Notes under the pieces: model-generated
The model's database searches: none
Told to the model about the DNA's origin: nothing
What the model saw: the letters and a program-made list of their open reading frames with translations, nothing else
Translations under genes and position numbers: made by a program
Part shown: positions 37,344-55,841 of the stretch, in pieces
Layout of the letters: every line of letters starts with the position of its first letter
How positions within the stretch are numbered: the stretch's first letter is position 1
Assembly (NCBI RefSeq): GCF_000242915.1
Contig: NZ_AFRZ01000001.1
Location: forward strand, 1,240,001-1,304,000
DNA length: 64,000 bases
Source: Sulfurimonas gotlandica GD1
GTDB taxonomy: Bacteria > Campylobacterota > Campylobacteria > Campylobacterales > Sulfurimonadaceae
Direction: 5' to 3'

Positions 37344-39131
37344 CTAGATTGTTTTATTATGTTCTATCAAATATTTTGTCATATCTTCAATAGATAAAGG
37401 ACGTGAATAGTAGTAACCTTGAATAAACTGACAACCATTTTGCAAGATAAAATTTTTCTGCTTCTCCGTCTCTACACCTTCAGCAATTACCTTAAGGTTC
37501 AAACTGCTACAAAGGCTGATAATAGTCTTTGTTATCGCTGCATCATCAGCATCTTGAGGTAGATCTTTAATAAATGATCTGTCTATCTTTAGTTTGTCAA
37601 TAGGGAGTCTTTTAAGGTAAGCCAGTGAAGAATAACCTGTTCCAAAATCATCAATAGCAATAGAAATGCCTAAATCACTCAATTTTTGTAGAGTCTCTAT
37701 AGAGGCTTCAGGGTTATTCATAATCTGATTTTCTGTTAGTTCAAACTCTATATTTTTATATGAGCAATCTTCACAATCAAGTATATTTTCAATAAACTCT
37801 ATAAAATCATTTTCTTCTATTTGCTTAATAGCCAAGTTTAGTGCAAGTTTTCCAGGATTAAGACCAGCTTTGTCCCACTTTTTAAACTGAGTAAGTGCTT
37901 TTTTCATTACAAGTCTGTCTAGTTGAACAATCATTCCTGTGATTTCAGCAAGAGGAATAAATTTATCCGGATAGATAAAGCCCATTATTGGATGCTCCCA
38001 TCTTACAAGAGCTTCCATACCAACTAATTTATTTTCTCTAGCATCTATCTGTGGTTGAAAATATACAACAAGTTCATCTTCTTCAAGAGCTTTTCTAAGT
38101 GCTGTTTCTAAAAATACTCTCTCAAATGCTCGCTCAGTCATTGCCTCATCATAAAAACAGTAAGTATTTCTTCCATCACCTTTGGCCTTGTACATAGCTG
38201 CATCTGCATTTTTTAAAAGTGAAGATGCACTGTTTCCATCATTTGGATAGACAGAAACACCTATACTCATACCTACATATAAAGTATGCCCATTTATTTC
38301 CATTGGCTCTTTTAGAGCCTCCATCCCACTTGTGATAATATCTGACATATCTTCTATATCGATAATATCATTAAGTATGATACAAAATTCATCTCCACCC
38401 AGTCTTGATAGTGTATCAGACTTTCTCATCTGATTTTTCATTCTGCGACTTACTTCAATTAAAACTTTATCACCTACGCCGTGACCTAAAGAGTCATTTA
38501 TCTCTTTAAAATGGTCTAAGTCTATAAAAAGTAAAGCTACTTTATTGTCGTATCTTTGCGCTATATTGATTGATTGTTGCAGTCTGTCCATAAATAGGAC
38601 ACGGTTTGGAAGATCAGTAAGCGAGTCATGGTTAGCTTGATATTCTAACTGTTCTCTCTGTTCATCAAGTATTTTGAGATTTTTTTCTAGATCTAGTTGT
38701 GTTTTTTTGAGGTTTGTTATATCGCGACCGGCACCAACTGTGCCAATTGTTTTCCCATCTTCATCATAAAAAGGGGCTTTATATACTTCTAGGTAGAGTA
38801 ATTCACCTTTTACATTGCCGTACTCTTCAAACTTCATAGCTTCACCATTCTCTATGACAACTTGATCAGAGTTAAAACATAGCTCACCAAATGTATGCCA
38901 GTTTAGTTTGTCACTATTAGCTTCTCTCTCTCTTAGGGCAAAAAAAACATCGCCCTTGCCAATAGGTTCATCTGTATCTTTTGCCATTAAAAGACCATCA
39001 CATATTGCTTTATTAGCATATAGATATTTGCCATTTAAGTCTTTAACCCATAGCATATCGGGTAGTTGTTGAGTTAAAAGTTTTAGTAATTCTGAGTTGT
39101 GTTCTTTGAGGTCAGAGAGTTTAAATGGCAT
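37344..39131 (-). CDS. PAS-GGDEF-EAL protein, both catalytic motifs present
   Basis: The 595-aa cytoplasmic protein has an N-terminal PAS domain (about 10-140, LPDMLWVKDLNGKYLYANKA), a GGDEF domain (about 165-325, NHDSLTDLPNRVLF and LSRLGGDEFCII) and an EAL domain (about 340-590). The latter keeps EALVRWEHP, ELTENQIM, IDDFGTGYSS, KIDRSFIK and VIAEGVET. It should be able to make and/or break cyclic-di-GMP, with PAS as sensor. It is a paralogue of the protein at 54.1-55.8 kb. The 243 bases upstream hold no other gene. Confidence 0.93.
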   Translation of the reverse strand: MPFKLSDLKEHNSELLKLLTQQLPDMLWVKDLNGKYLYANKAICDGLLMAKDTDEPIGKGDVFFALREREANSDKLNWHTFGELCFNSDQVVIENGEAMKFEEYGNVKGELLYLEVYKAPFYDEDGKTIGTVGAGRDITNLKKTQLDLEKNLKILDEQREQLEYQANHDSLTDLPNRVLFMDRLQQSINIAQRYDNKVALLFIDLDHFKEINDSLGHGVGDKVLIEVSRRMKNQMRKSDTLSRLGGDEFCIILNDIIDIEDMSDIITSGMEALKEPMEINGHTLYVGMSIGVSVYPNDGNSASSLLKNADAAMYKAKGDGRNTYCFYDEAMTERAFERVFLETALRKALEEDELVVYFQPQIDARENKLVGMEALVRWEHPIMGFIYPDKFIPLAEITGMIVQLDRLVMKKALTQFKKWDKAGLNPGKLALNLAIKQIEENDFIEFIENILDCEDCSYKNIEFELTENQIMNNPEASIETLQKLSDLGISIAIDDFGTGYSSLAYLKRLPIDKLKIDRSFIKDLPQDADDAAITKTIISLCSSLNLKVIAEGVETEKQKNFILQNGCQFIQGYYYSRPLSIEDMTKYLIEHNKTI

Positions 39132-47115: not shown

Positions 47116-48909
47116 ATGTTAGTACTTGTAACGTTTTTATTATTGATAATTTTACTTTCTCGTGTTACGGAAGAGATGACAAAAATTCCATCGACACTGT
47201 CTGTAATAGTTTACTCTTTTGCAGTGTCGCTATTCTTTCCTGAACTATTTGAGATTAATTCTCAAGAGTTTGATGAGATTTTGTATCTGATGCTGCCGGT
47301 AATCCTACTCCCTGATATTTTAAATATCTCAATAAAAGAGCTGAAAAATCATGCCAAAGAGATATTTTATTTAGCCGTAGTTGCAGTTGTGCTGTCCATT
47401 GCTATTGCTACATTAGTAACACCCTACTTGCTTCCTGAGTATAGCTTGACTGCTGGAATGCTTGTAGCACTCTTTGCAATGCTTATGGCTACAGATGCTA
47501 TAACGGTTGCATCTATAATGTCCAAATTTAAACTTCCTGAGCAACTGAAAATCTATGCTGAATCAGAATCACTTTTTAATGATGTGACAGCACTTATAAT
47601 ATTTTACTTTATAGCTCTGCCACTTATTACGGGAGGGGAAGTAACTCTTCTTTCTGTAAACTATATTTTGTTAAAAGTTTTAATACTTTCAACTGTTATC
47701 GGTGTTGCTGTGGCTTATGCAGGATTTTTGTTTATCAAAGTTCTGAAAAATCCTTTTGATCAGTTTGTAGTTATATATTTGGTTGTTATTATCTCATTTC
47801 TTCTAGCAGAGCATTTTCATATCGCAGGTATTTTATCTATAGTAGCATCTGCTCTAACCTTTAAGTCTCTTGTACAAAAAGAGACAAAAAATGAAACGCA
47901 GCGCCGTAGTAAAATCGGCGGTGTGCAAAGTGCTAAGGATCAAGAATCTATTCTAGAGCTAATAAAAAATGTTCCGGCTATAACAAAAAGAGAGTTTAGA
48001 GAGTATAAAAAAGAAGCGATGTTCATCGGTATTTTTGCAAATGCTATTGTTTTTGTTATTATCGCTAACATAATAGAACTCAGGTTTTTACTTACCTATT
48101 CCAAAGAGATTTTAATTGTATTTCTTATAACGACTCTTATTCGTTTTATGAGTGTATCTGCCCTTGTAGTAGCTATGAAGCTTCCATTTAGATGGGCTAA
48201 AACACTAACACTCTCAGGGACAAAGGGAGCATTAGCCATCATTATGGCGCACTCAATTCCTGAAAGTTTTATATATAAAGATATGTTTGAAGCCATTGTT
48301 ATAGGAAATGTTTTGATAAGTACATTTTTTTATACTTTTGTGTTGATGTTTCATATAAAGTTTAACAAAGATGAGTACGCCTTAGATATGCAGGTAGATA
48401 AGCAAAGCTCAGATGCAGGAATACTAGAATATACAAAAAGTGTAGTTGATATACTTGAAAAAGATTCATTTACTCAAGCCTATAACAGGGCATTTATCGA
48501 AGATATTATAACAAATGAGTTAGCACGTGCCAGCCGTTATAAACTGGATCTTTCACTGCTAATATTAAAGCTATCAAAAACAGATGAAGAAAATAATGTA
48601 GATGCACTTGAAATTGTCGGAGATATTATCACAGAACATATCCGTACGAATGACTACTTCGGAAAGTTAGGTGAAGATGAGTATGTTATAGTTACTTCAA
48701 ACACTTCTCTTGGTGGAGCGGTAATACTAGCAGAAAAGATCTCTCAGCAGTTTGATACGCAAGAAGTTGTTCACTCTAGTATGGAGTACTTTTTCGGTGC
48801 TACGCAGGCAGATGAGACAGATAGTATGGAAGCTGTTTTAGAAAAATTGAGAGAAGCACTCTCTCGCACAATTGGCAGTGACAGACACACGATAGAGATA
48901 GAAGTTTAA
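47116..48909 (+). CDS. CPA1-type cation/proton antiporter fused to a degenerate GGDEF domain
   Basis: Residues 1-415 form a polytopic membrane domain with antiporter motifs: ATDAITVASIM (125-135; Asp127 as in NhaP TDPVA) and ESLFNDVTALIIF (151-163; Asn155-Asp156, the cation site). A soluble stretch 255-300 interrupts the helices. Residues about 440-597 are a GGDEF domain starting EKDSFTQAYNRAFIED, with GEDEY (519-523) instead of GGDEF and, exactly five residues before, RTND (510-513), the RxxD inhibitory-site motif. This suggests cyclic-di-GMP binding without synthesis, so that c-di-GMP may gate ion exchange (inference). The next gene follows after 11 bases. Confidence 0.82.
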   Translation: MLVLVTFLLLIILLSRVTEEMTKIPSTLSVIVYSFAVSLFFPELFEINSQEFDEILYLMLPVILLPDILNISIKELKNHAKEIFYLAVVAVVLSIAIATLVTPYLLPEYSLTAGMLVALFAMLMATDAITVASIMSKFKLPEQLKIYAESESLFNDVTALIIFYFIALPLITGGEVTLLSVNYILLKVLILSTVIGVAVAYAGFLFIKVLKNPFDQFVVIYLVVIISFLLAEHFHIAGILSIVASALTFKSLVQKETKNETQRRSKIGGVQSAKDQESILELIKNVPAITKREFREYKKEAMFIGIFANAIVFVIIANIIELRFLLTYSKEILIVFLITTLIRFMSVSALVVAMKLPFRWAKTLTLSGTKGALAIIMAHSIPESFIYKDMFEAIVIGNVLISTFFYTFVLMFHIKFNKDEYALDMQVDKQSSDAGILEYTKSVVDILEKDSFTQAYNRAFIEDIITNELARASRYKLDLSLLILKLSKTDEENNVDALEIVGDIITEHIRTNDYFGKLGEDEYVIVTSNTSLGGAVILAEKISQQFDTQEVVHSSMEYFFGATQADETDSMEAVLEKLREALSRTIGSDRHTIEIEV

Positions 48910-48920
48910 AAAGGCAATAG

Positions 48921-50000
48921 ATGAAACAACTTTTATTGATGCTACTTTTGGCAGTAGCTCTTATATCTTCAACAGAGTTTGAAGAAGCGTATAAAATATA
49001 TAAAGATGGAGATTTTGAAAAATCATTTGTACTTTTTAGTGATTTGGCAGAAGATGGAGATAATGATGCCGCTTATATTTTAGGATATATGTATGAGAAC
49101 GGTGAGGGTTGCGAGGCTAGCGAAATACTATCAGCCAGATGGTATAAAATCTCTGCAAAAGGTTACTATGCTCAGACAAAACATGATACTTCAAGAGATA
49201 TTGATAAAGAGCAGCGTAAGCTCTATAACACTATAAATAAATCAGATAACAGCGAGACGCAAGATACAATAAGACAGATTACACAATCACTCTATAGTCT
49301 AAAAGCATATAAGCCAAACTACTTTTTACCTGCAAGTTATCGTCATGATGGTCAGTATGCTAATACAAATGGACATAAAGCAGAAGATATTGAAACAGAG
49401 TTCCAGTTAAGTATAAAGTTTGACTTTGCGGCAAATCTGCTTGGGTTAAATGAGATATATTCAGTAGCATACACCCAAATAGCATTTTGGCAACTCTACT
49501 CAAAATCTGCCTATTTTAGAGAAACAAACTATAATCCGGAGTTTAGTATAAAGATACCTACTTCCGAACTTAGTGATGCTAAGTTTATAAAGGCTGTAAA
49601 GATAGCCTTGGAACATGAGTCAAACGGTAGAGGTGGGGTTGATGAGAGATCATGGAACTCTATAAGCGGTAGTTTTTACTTTCAGTACAAACCGATTTTC
49701 TCAGAGCTAAAACTCTGGTACAGATTACCCGATAACTTTGACTATAATCCAGACCTTATAGACTACATGGGACATGGGCATCTGAGGTTTATTCTGCCGT
49801 ACGAGAAGCATCTTCTAGAGCTCCTGTTTAGACATAATTTTAGCGATGCAGGGGCAATAGAAGCTAACTACAGTTATCCTGTTTTTGGAAGAGAAGATTT
49901 GTTTTTGTATATGAAAGCCTTTAGTGGTTACGGTGAAAGCTTGATTGATTATGATAACTATATTAATAAAGTTGGAATAGGTTTTAGTATTTCAAGATAG
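48921..50000 (+). CDS. pldA: Outer-membrane phospholipase A with N-terminal Sel1 repeats
   Basis: Cleaves acyl chains of phospholipids in the outer membrane. 359 aa: signal peptide (1-17), two Sel1/TPR-like repeats (about 18-85, AYKIYKDGDFEKSFVLFSDL and AAYILGYMYENGEGC), then the OMPLA barrel. The catalytic His232-Ser234 (EHESNGR) and Asn246 have the spacing of E. coli His142/Ser144/Asn156. The barrel ends in VGIGFSISR. A Sel1 module on OMPLA is unusual. Follows the antiporter fusion by 11 bases. Confidence 0.88.
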   Translation: MKQLLLMLLLAVALISSTEFEEAYKIYKDGDFEKSFVLFSDLAEDGDNDAAYILGYMYENGEGCEASEILSARWYKISAKGYYAQTKHDTSRDIDKEQRKLYNTINKSDNSETQDTIRQITQSLYSLKAYKPNYFLPASYRHDGQYANTNGHKAEDIETEFQLSIKFDFAANLLGLNEIYSVAYTQIAFWQLYSKSAYFRETNYNPEFSIKIPTSELSDAKFIKAVKIALEHESNGRGGVDERSWNSISGSFYFQYKPIFSELKLWYRLPDNFDYNPDLIDYMGHGHLRFILPYEKHLLELLFRHNFSDAGAIEANYSYPVFGREDLFLYMKAFSGYGESLIDYDNYINKVGIGFSISR

Positions 50001-51130: not shown

Positions 51131-52294
51131 GTGAATCCAATCAAGACCATCTCTGTAAACTTACTCATACCATTTCTTGTTTCAGCTCTTTTTGCTGTAA
51201 TAATTTACAATGCATCAAAAATACCTGAGATACTTTTTGACATCGTCCCATATCTTTTTTATGGGCTGAGCCTTCTAATCATCTGGGTATCGTGGCACTT
51301 TAATCGTAACAGATTCATATTTGTAATCTTGCCTCTTATTTTAATATATCTTGGATTTGAGTACTTTAGTGCTAAAAAAGCAACACTTCTATTTCTGTAT
51401 GTATCTATGTTTTATCCGATTCATCTTTTAATATTTTTGGTTTTAAAAGAGAGAGGACTCTTCTCGTTCTGGGGTATCTTAAAGATAGGATTTTTCATTT
51501 TAGAGATAGCGATAGTCTTGTATCTTATCTACTATCCAAATGAGACTCTGCAGAATTATCTAAAGATAAAACTATTTGCCGCTAATTTTTACCCTCTAAA
51601 AGATGTCTCTATTGCTATTGGGATTTTTGTCTTGTTTGTTATGAGTGCTCTTGTTATGTTTGGCAGATACCTCTTATACAGCACAACTTTTTTGAATCTG
51701 CTTGTTGCTTTTTACCTCGCTCTTTTCTTTTTGAAAACTACTCATGCAACTGAAGTTGCTTTTTTATCTTTTTCAATTATTATTTTTATTCTTCTAATCC
51801 GAGAGTCATACCGACTCGCTTTTTATGATGAACTTACAGCTTTGCCTGGACGTAGAGCATTAGTAGAAGATATGGCAAAACTAGGAAGAAAGTATTCTTT
51901 AGCCATGTGTGATATAGACTTTTTCAAGAAATTTAACGACACCTATGGACATGATACCGGTGATGAAGTTTTAAAAATGGTAGCTTCAAAGTTTTCAGAG
52001 GTTAGCGGCGGCGGTAAAGCATACAGATATGGAGGGGAAGAGTTTGTTATTTTGTTTCCCTCCAAAGAGAGCGAAGAATCATTTGTTCATGTAGATGCTC
52101 TAAGACAAAATATAGCAAGCACACCGTTTAGTGTTAGAAACAAACAAAGTACCAAAAAAATATTTATAAATGTATCTGCGGGAATTACTCAATACACTAC
52201 AAAAGACAAAGATCCTTTTGCAGTTATGAAGAGGGCTGATAATGCCCTTTACAAGGCAAAAAAAGCTGGACGAAATCAAGTTATTAAAGATTAG
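51131..52294 (+). CDS. Membrane-bound diguanylate cyclase
   Basis: 387 aa, GTG start two bases after the lipoprotein gene. Residues 1-220 hold about seven to eight transmembrane helices, the rest is a GGDEF domain (about 230-387) with the intact signature YGGEEFVILFP, the DxD-like metal site in CDIDFFKKFND, and TGDEVLKM. Should synthesise cyclic-di-GMP from GTP. The membrane part has no known sensor motif. Its last four bases overlap the convergent cytochrome gene. Confidence 0.9.
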   Translation: MNPIKTISVNLLIPFLVSALFAVIIYNASKIPEILFDIVPYLFYGLSLLIIWVSWHFNRNRFIFVILPLILIYLGFEYFSAKKATLLFLYVSMFYPIHLLIFLVLKERGLFSFWGILKIGFFILEIAIVLYLIYYPNETLQNYLKIKLFAANFYPLKDVSIAIGIFVLFVMSALVMFGRYLLYSTTFLNLLVAFYLALFFLKTTHATEVAFLSFSIIIFILLIRESYRLAFYDELTALPGRRALVEDMAKLGRKYSLAMCDIDFFKKFNDTYGHDTGDEVLKMVASKFSEVSGGGKAYRYGGEEFVILFPSKESEESFVHVDALRQNIASTPFSVRNKQSTKKIFINVSAGITQYTTKDKDPFAVMKRADNALYKAKKAGRNQVIKD

Positions 52295-54116: not shown

Positions 54117-55841
54117 ATGAGTGATATAGAGTTTGATAAATTAAAAAAAAGTAACGAAGAGCTTGCCTATATTGTAAAGCATGCTGTTTCTGAAATTTAT
54201 ATATTAGACTTTGAAACACTAGACTACGTATTTGCTAATGATGGTGCGCTGCAAAATATAGGCTATACACTAGACGAACTGCTGAAGTTAAACGTTTATG
54301 ATATTAACAAGACTTTAACACGAAAGCATGTTGAGAGCTTAAGAGCTTCATGTGCAATCAACGATAGTGTATCTAATATCTCAGAACACACCAGAAAAGA
54401 TGGAACATCTTATACTGTTCAAGCTTCTATCCAATCTATTATCTACCAAGAGAAAAAAGCATACGTACTTTTTGACACAGATATCTCAAAGCTTAAAAAA
54501 GTTCAAAAAGAGTTACGTGAACAAAAAGACATACTCCATCATCAGGCTCATCACGATGCATTAACTGGTCTGCCAAATCGTATACTCTTTAATGATAGGT
54601 TATCCCAGGGCATAAAAAAGTCTAAAAGACATAATGAAATCTTAGCTCTTTTTTTTATAGACTTAGATCAGTTTAAACAAATAAATGATTCTCTTGGTCA
54701 TGATACTGGAGATGTGGTTTTAAAAGAGGCTAGTAGGCGTTTTTCTTCAAAAATAAGAGAAGAAGATACTCTCTCTCGTCTTGGCGGAGATGAGTTTAGT
54801 GTTATTGCCGGTGGTTTAAAAGAAGCCAGCGAAGCTTCTGTCTTAGCAAACAAGTTTATAGAGTGTATGGCAGAGCCTATTGTAGTCGGTGCCCATACTC
54901 TCTACTTAACTTGCAGCATTGGTATTAGTTTTTATCCGCAAGATGGTCAAAGCGCAGAAAATCTTTTAAAGTATGCAGACGTTGCTATGTATAAAGCAAA
55001 AGATGAGGGAAGAAATAATTACCAGACATACTCATCAAAGTTAACAGAGCTGATGCATGAGCAGGTGACTATGAGAACCAGTCTGCACAAAGCACTGAAG
55101 AATGATGAATTTATTCTTAATTACCAGCCTCAGATAGACAGTATGACTGACAGAATCATCGGAATGGAAGCACTTATAAGATGGAATCATCCAGAGCTTG
55201 GAAGAGTTTCTCCTGCAAAGTTTATTCCTTTGGCTGAAGAGACAGGTTTTATAGTTGAGCTTGATAGATGGGTAATGCAAGAAGCTATGAGTAAACTGAG
55301 TTCTTGGTATGAGGAGGGTTTAAACCCTGGTATGCTGGCTCTAAACCTTGCTATGAAACAGATCCAAAAGAGTGACTTCTTAGAGTTTTTAAAAAATACT
55401 ATGAAAGAGACAAATTGTTTGAGTGAGTGGATAGAGCTAGAGGTTACCGAGGGTGAGATTATGAAAAATCCTGATGAGTCGATAGCTACTCTCAAAGAGA
55501 TTAACAAGCTTGGTATTACTTTGGCGATTGATGATTTTGGTACCGGGTATTCATCACTTTCGTACCTTAAAAAATTACCGGTAAATAAACTAAAAATAGA
55601 TCAGTCTTTTATTAAAGATACACCTGATGATGAAGATGATGTTGCCATAACTAAAGCAGTTATAGCTTTGGCGAAGAGTTTGAAGATGAGTGTTATTGCA
55701 GAGGGTGTCGAAACGAAAGCACAAAAAGATTTTTTAATATTAAACGAGTGTCTTCAGATACAGGGTTATTACTACTCTCCACCTGTAGATGCACAAAAAA
55801 TGAGAGATATGCTTATAGAGCAGAAAGAGAAAGAGGCTTAG
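54117..55841 (+). CDS. PAS-GGDEF-EAL protein (paralogue of 37.3 kb gene)
   Basis: 574 aa, no membrane helix. N-terminal PAS domain (about 5-130, IYILDFETLDYVFANDGALQ), GGDEF domain (about 140-300; AHHDALTGLPNRILF, LSRLGGDEFSVI) and EAL domain (about 315-570; EALIRWNHP, LEVTEGEIM, IDDFGTGYSS, KIDQSFIKD, VIAEGVET). Both activities look possible. It shares layout and many motifs with the minus-strand gene at 37.3-39.1 kb. One base upstream of dgt, so probably cotranscribed. Confidence 0.93.
   Translation: MSDIEFDKLKKSNEELAYIVKHAVSEIYILDFETLDYVFANDGALQNIGYTLDELLKLNVYDINKTLTRKHVESLRASCAINDSVSNISEHTRKDGTSYTVQASIQSIIYQEKKAYVLFDTDISKLKKVQKELREQKDILHHQAHHDALTGLPNRILFNDRLSQGIKKSKRHNEILALFFIDLDQFKQINDSLGHDTGDVVLKEASRRFSSKIREEDTLSRLGGDEFSVIAGGLKEASEASVLANKFIECMAEPIVVGAHTLYLTCSIGISFYPQDGQSAENLLKYADVAMYKAKDEGRNNYQTYSSKLTELMHEQVTMRTSLHKALKNDEFILNYQPQIDSMTDRIIGMEALIRWNHPELGRVSPAKFIPLAEETGFIVELDRWVMQEAMSKLSSWYEEGLNPGMLALNLAMKQIQKSDFLEFLKNTMKETNCLSEWIELEVTEGEIMKNPDESIATLKEINKLGITLAIDDFGTGYSSLSYLKKLPVNKLKIDQSFIKDTPDDEDDVAITKAVIALAKSLKMSVIAEGVETKAQKDFLILNECLQIQGYYYSPPVDAQKMRDMLIEQKEKEA

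Follow-up and report, generated by a model that had tools for sequence, protein, structure and literature searches.

Most known targets of c-di-GMP are transcription factors, polysaccharide machines, pili or flagella, and the dinucleotide tied to ion transport is c-di-AMP. Some receptors of c-di-GMP are themselves GGDEF domains that have lost the active site (A-site) and kept the inhibitory site (I-site, RxxD). SgmT, with a degenerate A-site and an intact I-site, binds c-di-GMP, and the substitution R763A abolishes this binding (PMC3509222). In the same protein Arg794, located 31 positions after the I-site Arg763, is part of a secondary c-di-GMP site (PMC3509222). PopA has the same make-up, a degenerate A-site with an intact I-site (PMC12564702), and RxxD is found in about 53% of GGDEF domains (PMC3974145). 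Among ion exchangers, SLC9C1 is a Na+/H+ exchanger of sperm whose gating depends on voltage and cAMP, and it has a C-terminal nucleotide-binding domain (PMC6052114). Receptor GGDEF domains and nucleotide-controlled exchangers are therefore each already known; the literature searched contained no example of the two combined.

Here we describe a gene of Sulfurimonas gotlandica GD1 in which an antiporter and a GGDEF domain with receptor-like features are joined. It is located in a window of 64,000 nucleotides (contig NZ_AFRZ01000001.1, positions 1,240,001 to 1,304,000), the whole stretch of DNA that was analysed. A sequence-only reading had proposed that c-di-GMP binding controls ion exchange directly and knew of no described antiporter with this architecture; the open literature that we searched (most subscription journals fall outside it) likewise yielded no description of one. 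In our best explanation the protein is a CPA1-type antiporter in which a former diguanylate cyclase probably acts as a cytoplasmic C-terminal receptor, with c-di-GMP as the putative ligand and a proposed coupling to transport.

An antiporter and a GGDEF domain in one reading frame

The features of the gene are, in window coordinates:

47116..48909, + strand: CPA1 antiporter-GGDEF fusion gene, 597 aa, ATG start (ORF call, Pfam, full-length homologues)
47116..48363, + strand: transport domain, residues 1-416, 13 predicted membrane helices (PF00999; AlphaFold; Foldseek; loop charges)
47494..47496, + strand: Asp127 of the ATDAIT motif in the broken fifth helix, invariant (20/20)
47566..47583, + strand: ESLFND 151-156, CPA1 Asn-Asp ion-binding motif, with E151, S152, L153, N155 and D156 invariant (20/20)
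48364..48456, + strand: helical linker, residues 417-447, low confidence (AlphaFold pLDDT <50 at 430-447)
48457..48906, + strand: GGDEF-fold domain, residues 448-597, catalytically degenerate (PF00990; AlphaFold; PDB matches)
48526..48528, + strand: Arg471, counterpart of PleD Arg313 (Arg 18/20, Lys 1/20)
48643..48654, + strand: RTND 510-513, primary I-site (RxxD; R 18/20, D 20/20)
48670..48684, + strand: GEDEY 519-523, degenerate A-site, unconserved among relatives
48736..48738, + strand: Lys541, counterpart of PleD Arg390 and SgmT Arg794, 31 residues after Arg510 (Lys/Arg 20/20)

The positions first given for Asp127, ESLFND, RTND and GEDEY were confirmed residue by residue. Within the single reading frame both Pfam domains exceeded their curated cut-offs: Na_H_Exchanger (PF00999) at residues 10-409 (E 4e-29, 102.1 bits against a cut-off of 26.2) and GGDEF (PF00990) at residues 450-582 (E 4e-9, 36.9 bits against 23.8). 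NCBIfam recognized the same two kinds of domain in the 597-aa protein, with no equivalog match at cut-off. These were the sole Pfam domains, and neither RCK_N nor RCK_C was present, so the protein is not of the CpaA type.

The whole-protein AlphaFold model (mean pLDDT 78) shows 13 long helices. Helix breaks fall near 124-128 and 367-372, a feature shared with NhaP and NHE, and Foldseek matched the model to SOS1, SLC9C1, NHE1 and PaNhaP. PF00999 spans the whole transport domain, and the Asp in TM5 and the Asn-Asp pair in TM6 are those of the CPA1 family. Residues 1-416 are a CPA1-type cation/proton antiporter with putative Na+(K+)/H+ exchange, the ion presumably being Na+ or K+. Loops rich in Lys and Arg alternate along the transport domain, which places the C-terminal domain in the cytoplasm.

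Distribution and origin of the fusion

A frameshift or an assembly join could also produce such a gene; both are ruled out, because the same fusion recurs at full length in 24 genomes. Fourteen of these belong to the family of the window (228 genomes searched), 8 to further families within the same order, and 2 are Gammaproteobacteria MAGs, so that 22 of the 24 lie within the window's own phylum and two phyla are represented overall. One MAG copy (G648) is split over two contigs, and the fusion was read there from the two pieces. The full-length fused homologues (37-87% identity) form a clade A of about 586-603 residues, with 16 copies including that of the window, and a clade B of about 543-553 residues, with 8 copies.

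Unfused homologues of about 430-450 residues appear in sister lineages, and some genomes (G007, G351, G350) hold both kinds. In a transport-domain tree of 47 rows, built by a quick method and carrying a long-branch warning, a single branch (SH-aLRT 99) had every one of the 21 fused rows on the same side. Since the sampled fused copies share one side of one branch, a single fusion event is enough to explain them and would be the simplest reading, though not a proven one. One genome with a fused clade A copy also carries an unfused 423-aa copy (L215, G700:C9:512-1726) that is clade B-like by eye, possibly a secondary loss of the GGDEF domain.

In both Gammaproteobacteria MAGs (L040 1-6725; L041) the fusion lies beside argA, rnt, grxD and a FecR-like gene, all named by eye from their translations. 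Because both share these gammaproteobacterial-looking argA, rnt and grxD flanks, the copies look like cross-phylum transfer rather than contamination, and mis-binned contigs are not favoured. A search of plasmids returned only partial antiporter matches (24-32% identity), none covering over 80% of the query.

The gene neighbours are conserved in close relatives only and differ elsewhere, so the fusion gene appears to stand alone and no operon partner supplying its function was found. In the window, 11 bases downstream of the antiporter, lies a gene for a phospholipase A1 family protein (PF02253) that also contains a Sel1-like repeat (48921-50000, + strand), which was not found in the loci of close relatives (L081-L083).

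Loss of the active site

The C-terminal region had been described at first as a full GGDEF fold. The fold itself stood: the isolated domain, modelled with the family alignment as input, gave a confident GGDEF fold (AlphaFold pLDDT 88), whose best PDB match was the c-di-GMP-bound structure 3ign (Z 22.6, rmsd 1.6 over 152 residues). Its completeness did not, as the metal/GTP-binding segment that follows the first strand (DxDxFKxxND...GD) is deleted. The signature varies freely among relatives (GEDEY, SEDEY, QEDEY, TDDEY, EEGHF, NDGRF, DENYY, RRECF), and agreement at A-site positions 519-522 is found in 5-11 of the 20 aligned rows (domain mean 9.0). The A-site positions rank at the 19th to 64th conservation percentile of the domain. 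Neither the GG(D/E)EF signature nor the metal/GTP residues of an active diguanylate cyclase were found. With an unconserved signature and this segment deleted, no synthesis of c-di-GMP is expected, and the domain cannot plausibly make the molecule.

The genome as a whole has a very large c-di-GMP network, with 113 GGDEF matches in 2,952,682 bases (about 38 per Mb), so that c-di-GMP should be present in the cell. Other members of this network in the window are a probably membrane-anchored GGDEF gene (51131-52294, + strand), a PAS-GGDEF-EAL gene (54117-55841, + strand) and a high-scoring GGDEF gene (37344-39131, - strand; genome 1278166-1278636).

Retention of the I-site

In the stretch RTND-YFGKL-GEDEY the gap of 5 residues is the canonical spacing between RxxD and GGDEF, as the sequence-only reading had it. 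Arg510, Asp513, Lys541 and Arg471 were matched to R359, D362, R390 and R313 of PleD, the I-site residues of that protein; there, Arg313 comes from a neighbouring domain. Alignment of the fused homologues showed RxxD conserved in 22 of 24 copies (20 aligned rows plus 4 further clade A copies): all 16 of clade A and 6 of the 8 of clade B, the other two having lost the Arg (IGKGD, HPQGD). The conservation of RxxD and the recurrence of the fusion both agree with the sequence-only reading where they could have contradicted it. R510 and D513 lie at the 90th and 96th conservation percentile of the domain. A degenerate A-site with an intact RxxD, and the basic positions K541 and R471 kept, is the make-up seen in receptors of the SgmT and PopA type.

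The background in the same genome qualifies the weight of the motif. Among the 113 GGDEF matches 80 were fetched and 72 could be scored, of which 39 of 45 canonical domains carry RxxD versus 6 of 27 degenerate ones. The motif as such is therefore ordinary, and as evidence for a receptor it is weaker alone than had been implied; what holds is its retention once the active site is gone. The contrast between the fused copies (22/24) and the degenerate domains of the genome (6/27) gives a Fisher p of 6e-7, a value that overstates independence, since the fused copies are related, and whose true weight is smaller. Two further GGDEF domains of this genome that are strongly degenerate have kept RxxD, at 84746-85150 (- strand; IRNTDILIKYDQKNF) and 1205755-1206180 (- strand; SRRSDTVAHYGNGVF), and are candidates for further receptors.

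Residues outside the known I-site, namely Tyr456, Glu468, Gly516, Asp569 and Lys577, are also among the most invariant of the domain, indicating that some further demand shapes it too. As they are as invariant as the I-site, the strongest rival explanation is that the dead GGDEF fold is a structural or protein-contact module, involved in dimerisation of the antiporter or in docking GGDEF/EAL partners, with RxxD kept as a stabiliser of the hairpin. The loss of the Arg in 2 of 8 clade B copies fits such a role, as does CdpA, a degenerate GGDEF domain that works independently of c-di-GMP (cited in PMC3974145). Moreover, nearly all canonical domains of this genome (42/45) carry the Asp of RxxD, so part of the conservation may be structural. 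However, the fold does not need the Arg, 21 of the 27 degenerate domains of the genome being without RxxD, and yet all but two of the 24 fused copies have retained it, alongside both other basic I-site positions. We regard the structural role as unlikely, if still worth weighing.

That the domain senses another ligand, for example a nucleotide (ATP, GTP, ppGpp) or pH, to regulate exchange is clearly less probable. Regulation of NHE-type exchangers by their cytoplasmic tails is common. Furthermore, the highly degenerate GGDEF domain of YybT has ATPase activity (cited in PMC3974145). Against this, the segment that would bind GTP and metal is deleted here, and the residues retained are the ones through which known proteins bind c-di-GMP. 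A diguanylate cyclase that senses ions or pH, with the antiporter as sensor, would be very hard to credit and is ruled out on its catalytic residues: a change at the first position of the signature can spare activity, as for AGDEF in VCA0965 (PMC3974145), but GEDEY departs from the signature at its second and fifth residues, EEGHF, NDGRF or RRECF stand in its place in relatives, and the first metal Asp is absent together with the FKxxND...GD segment.

A proposed c-di-GMP-gated antiporter

The computed part of the receptor reading consists of the architecture, the fold, the topology, the loss of catalytic residues and the conservation of the I-site. Because CPA1 transporters work as dimers, two GGDEF domains would lie side by side beneath the membrane, provided that this protein is also dimeric. 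At high c-di-GMP, an intercalated c-di-GMP dimer would bind RxxD (510-513) and Lys541 in one domain together with Arg471 in the other, and would thereby lock the two domains together. Through the short linker after helix 13, the locked pair could then favour, or perhaps block, the transport movement; the poor prediction of this linker counts against the coupling proposal. The wider claim, which we consider could go either way, is that these fusions form a family, the first in which c-di-GMP directly gates an ion antiporter: a diguanylate cyclase domain would have become, through a single ancient fusion, the ligand-binding regulator of a Na+(K+)/H+ exchanger, and c-di-GMP would thereby set the pH of the cytoplasm or the sodium gradient with no need for transcription.

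If true, Sulfurimonas-type bacteria, of which some have very large c-di-GMP networks, would possess a direct link from this dinucleotide to their pH and cation balance, and the signal that governs biofilm and motility might switch ion exchange directly. The fusion offers a simple, testable protein for this link.

Comparison with known systems

The cyclases PleD, WspR, DgcR and PadC have the same GGDEF fold and I-site residues as the fusion, and in them the active site is intact whereas here it is lost. With the CPA1 Na+/H+ antiporter PaNhaP of Pyrococcus abyssi the transport fold is common, but PaNhaP has no GGDEF domain. SLC9C1 and SOS1 share the CPA1/NHE fold and belong to the top structural matches of the whole-protein model; they are eukaryotic, and a CNBD and (in SLC9C1) a voltage sensor take the place of GGDEF. 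CpaA of Staphylococcus aureus is, like the fusion, a bacterial cation/proton antiporter with a cytoplasmic C-terminal domain, cyclic-dinucleotide-binding in CpaA and putatively so here. It differs in using c-di-AMP and an RCK_C domain with no GGDEF fold, and in that its binding has been measured (PMC5575661). SgmT (Myxococcus xanthus) and PopA (Caulobacter) also have a degenerate A-site, an intact RxxD and a GGDEF receptor module within a larger protein. They serve a kinase or cell-cycle proteolysis while the fusion would serve a transporter, and c-di-GMP binding was measured in them and is predicted here from the residues. The likeness extends to the basic residue located 31 positions after the I-site Arg, R794 in SgmT and K541 in the antiporter fusion.
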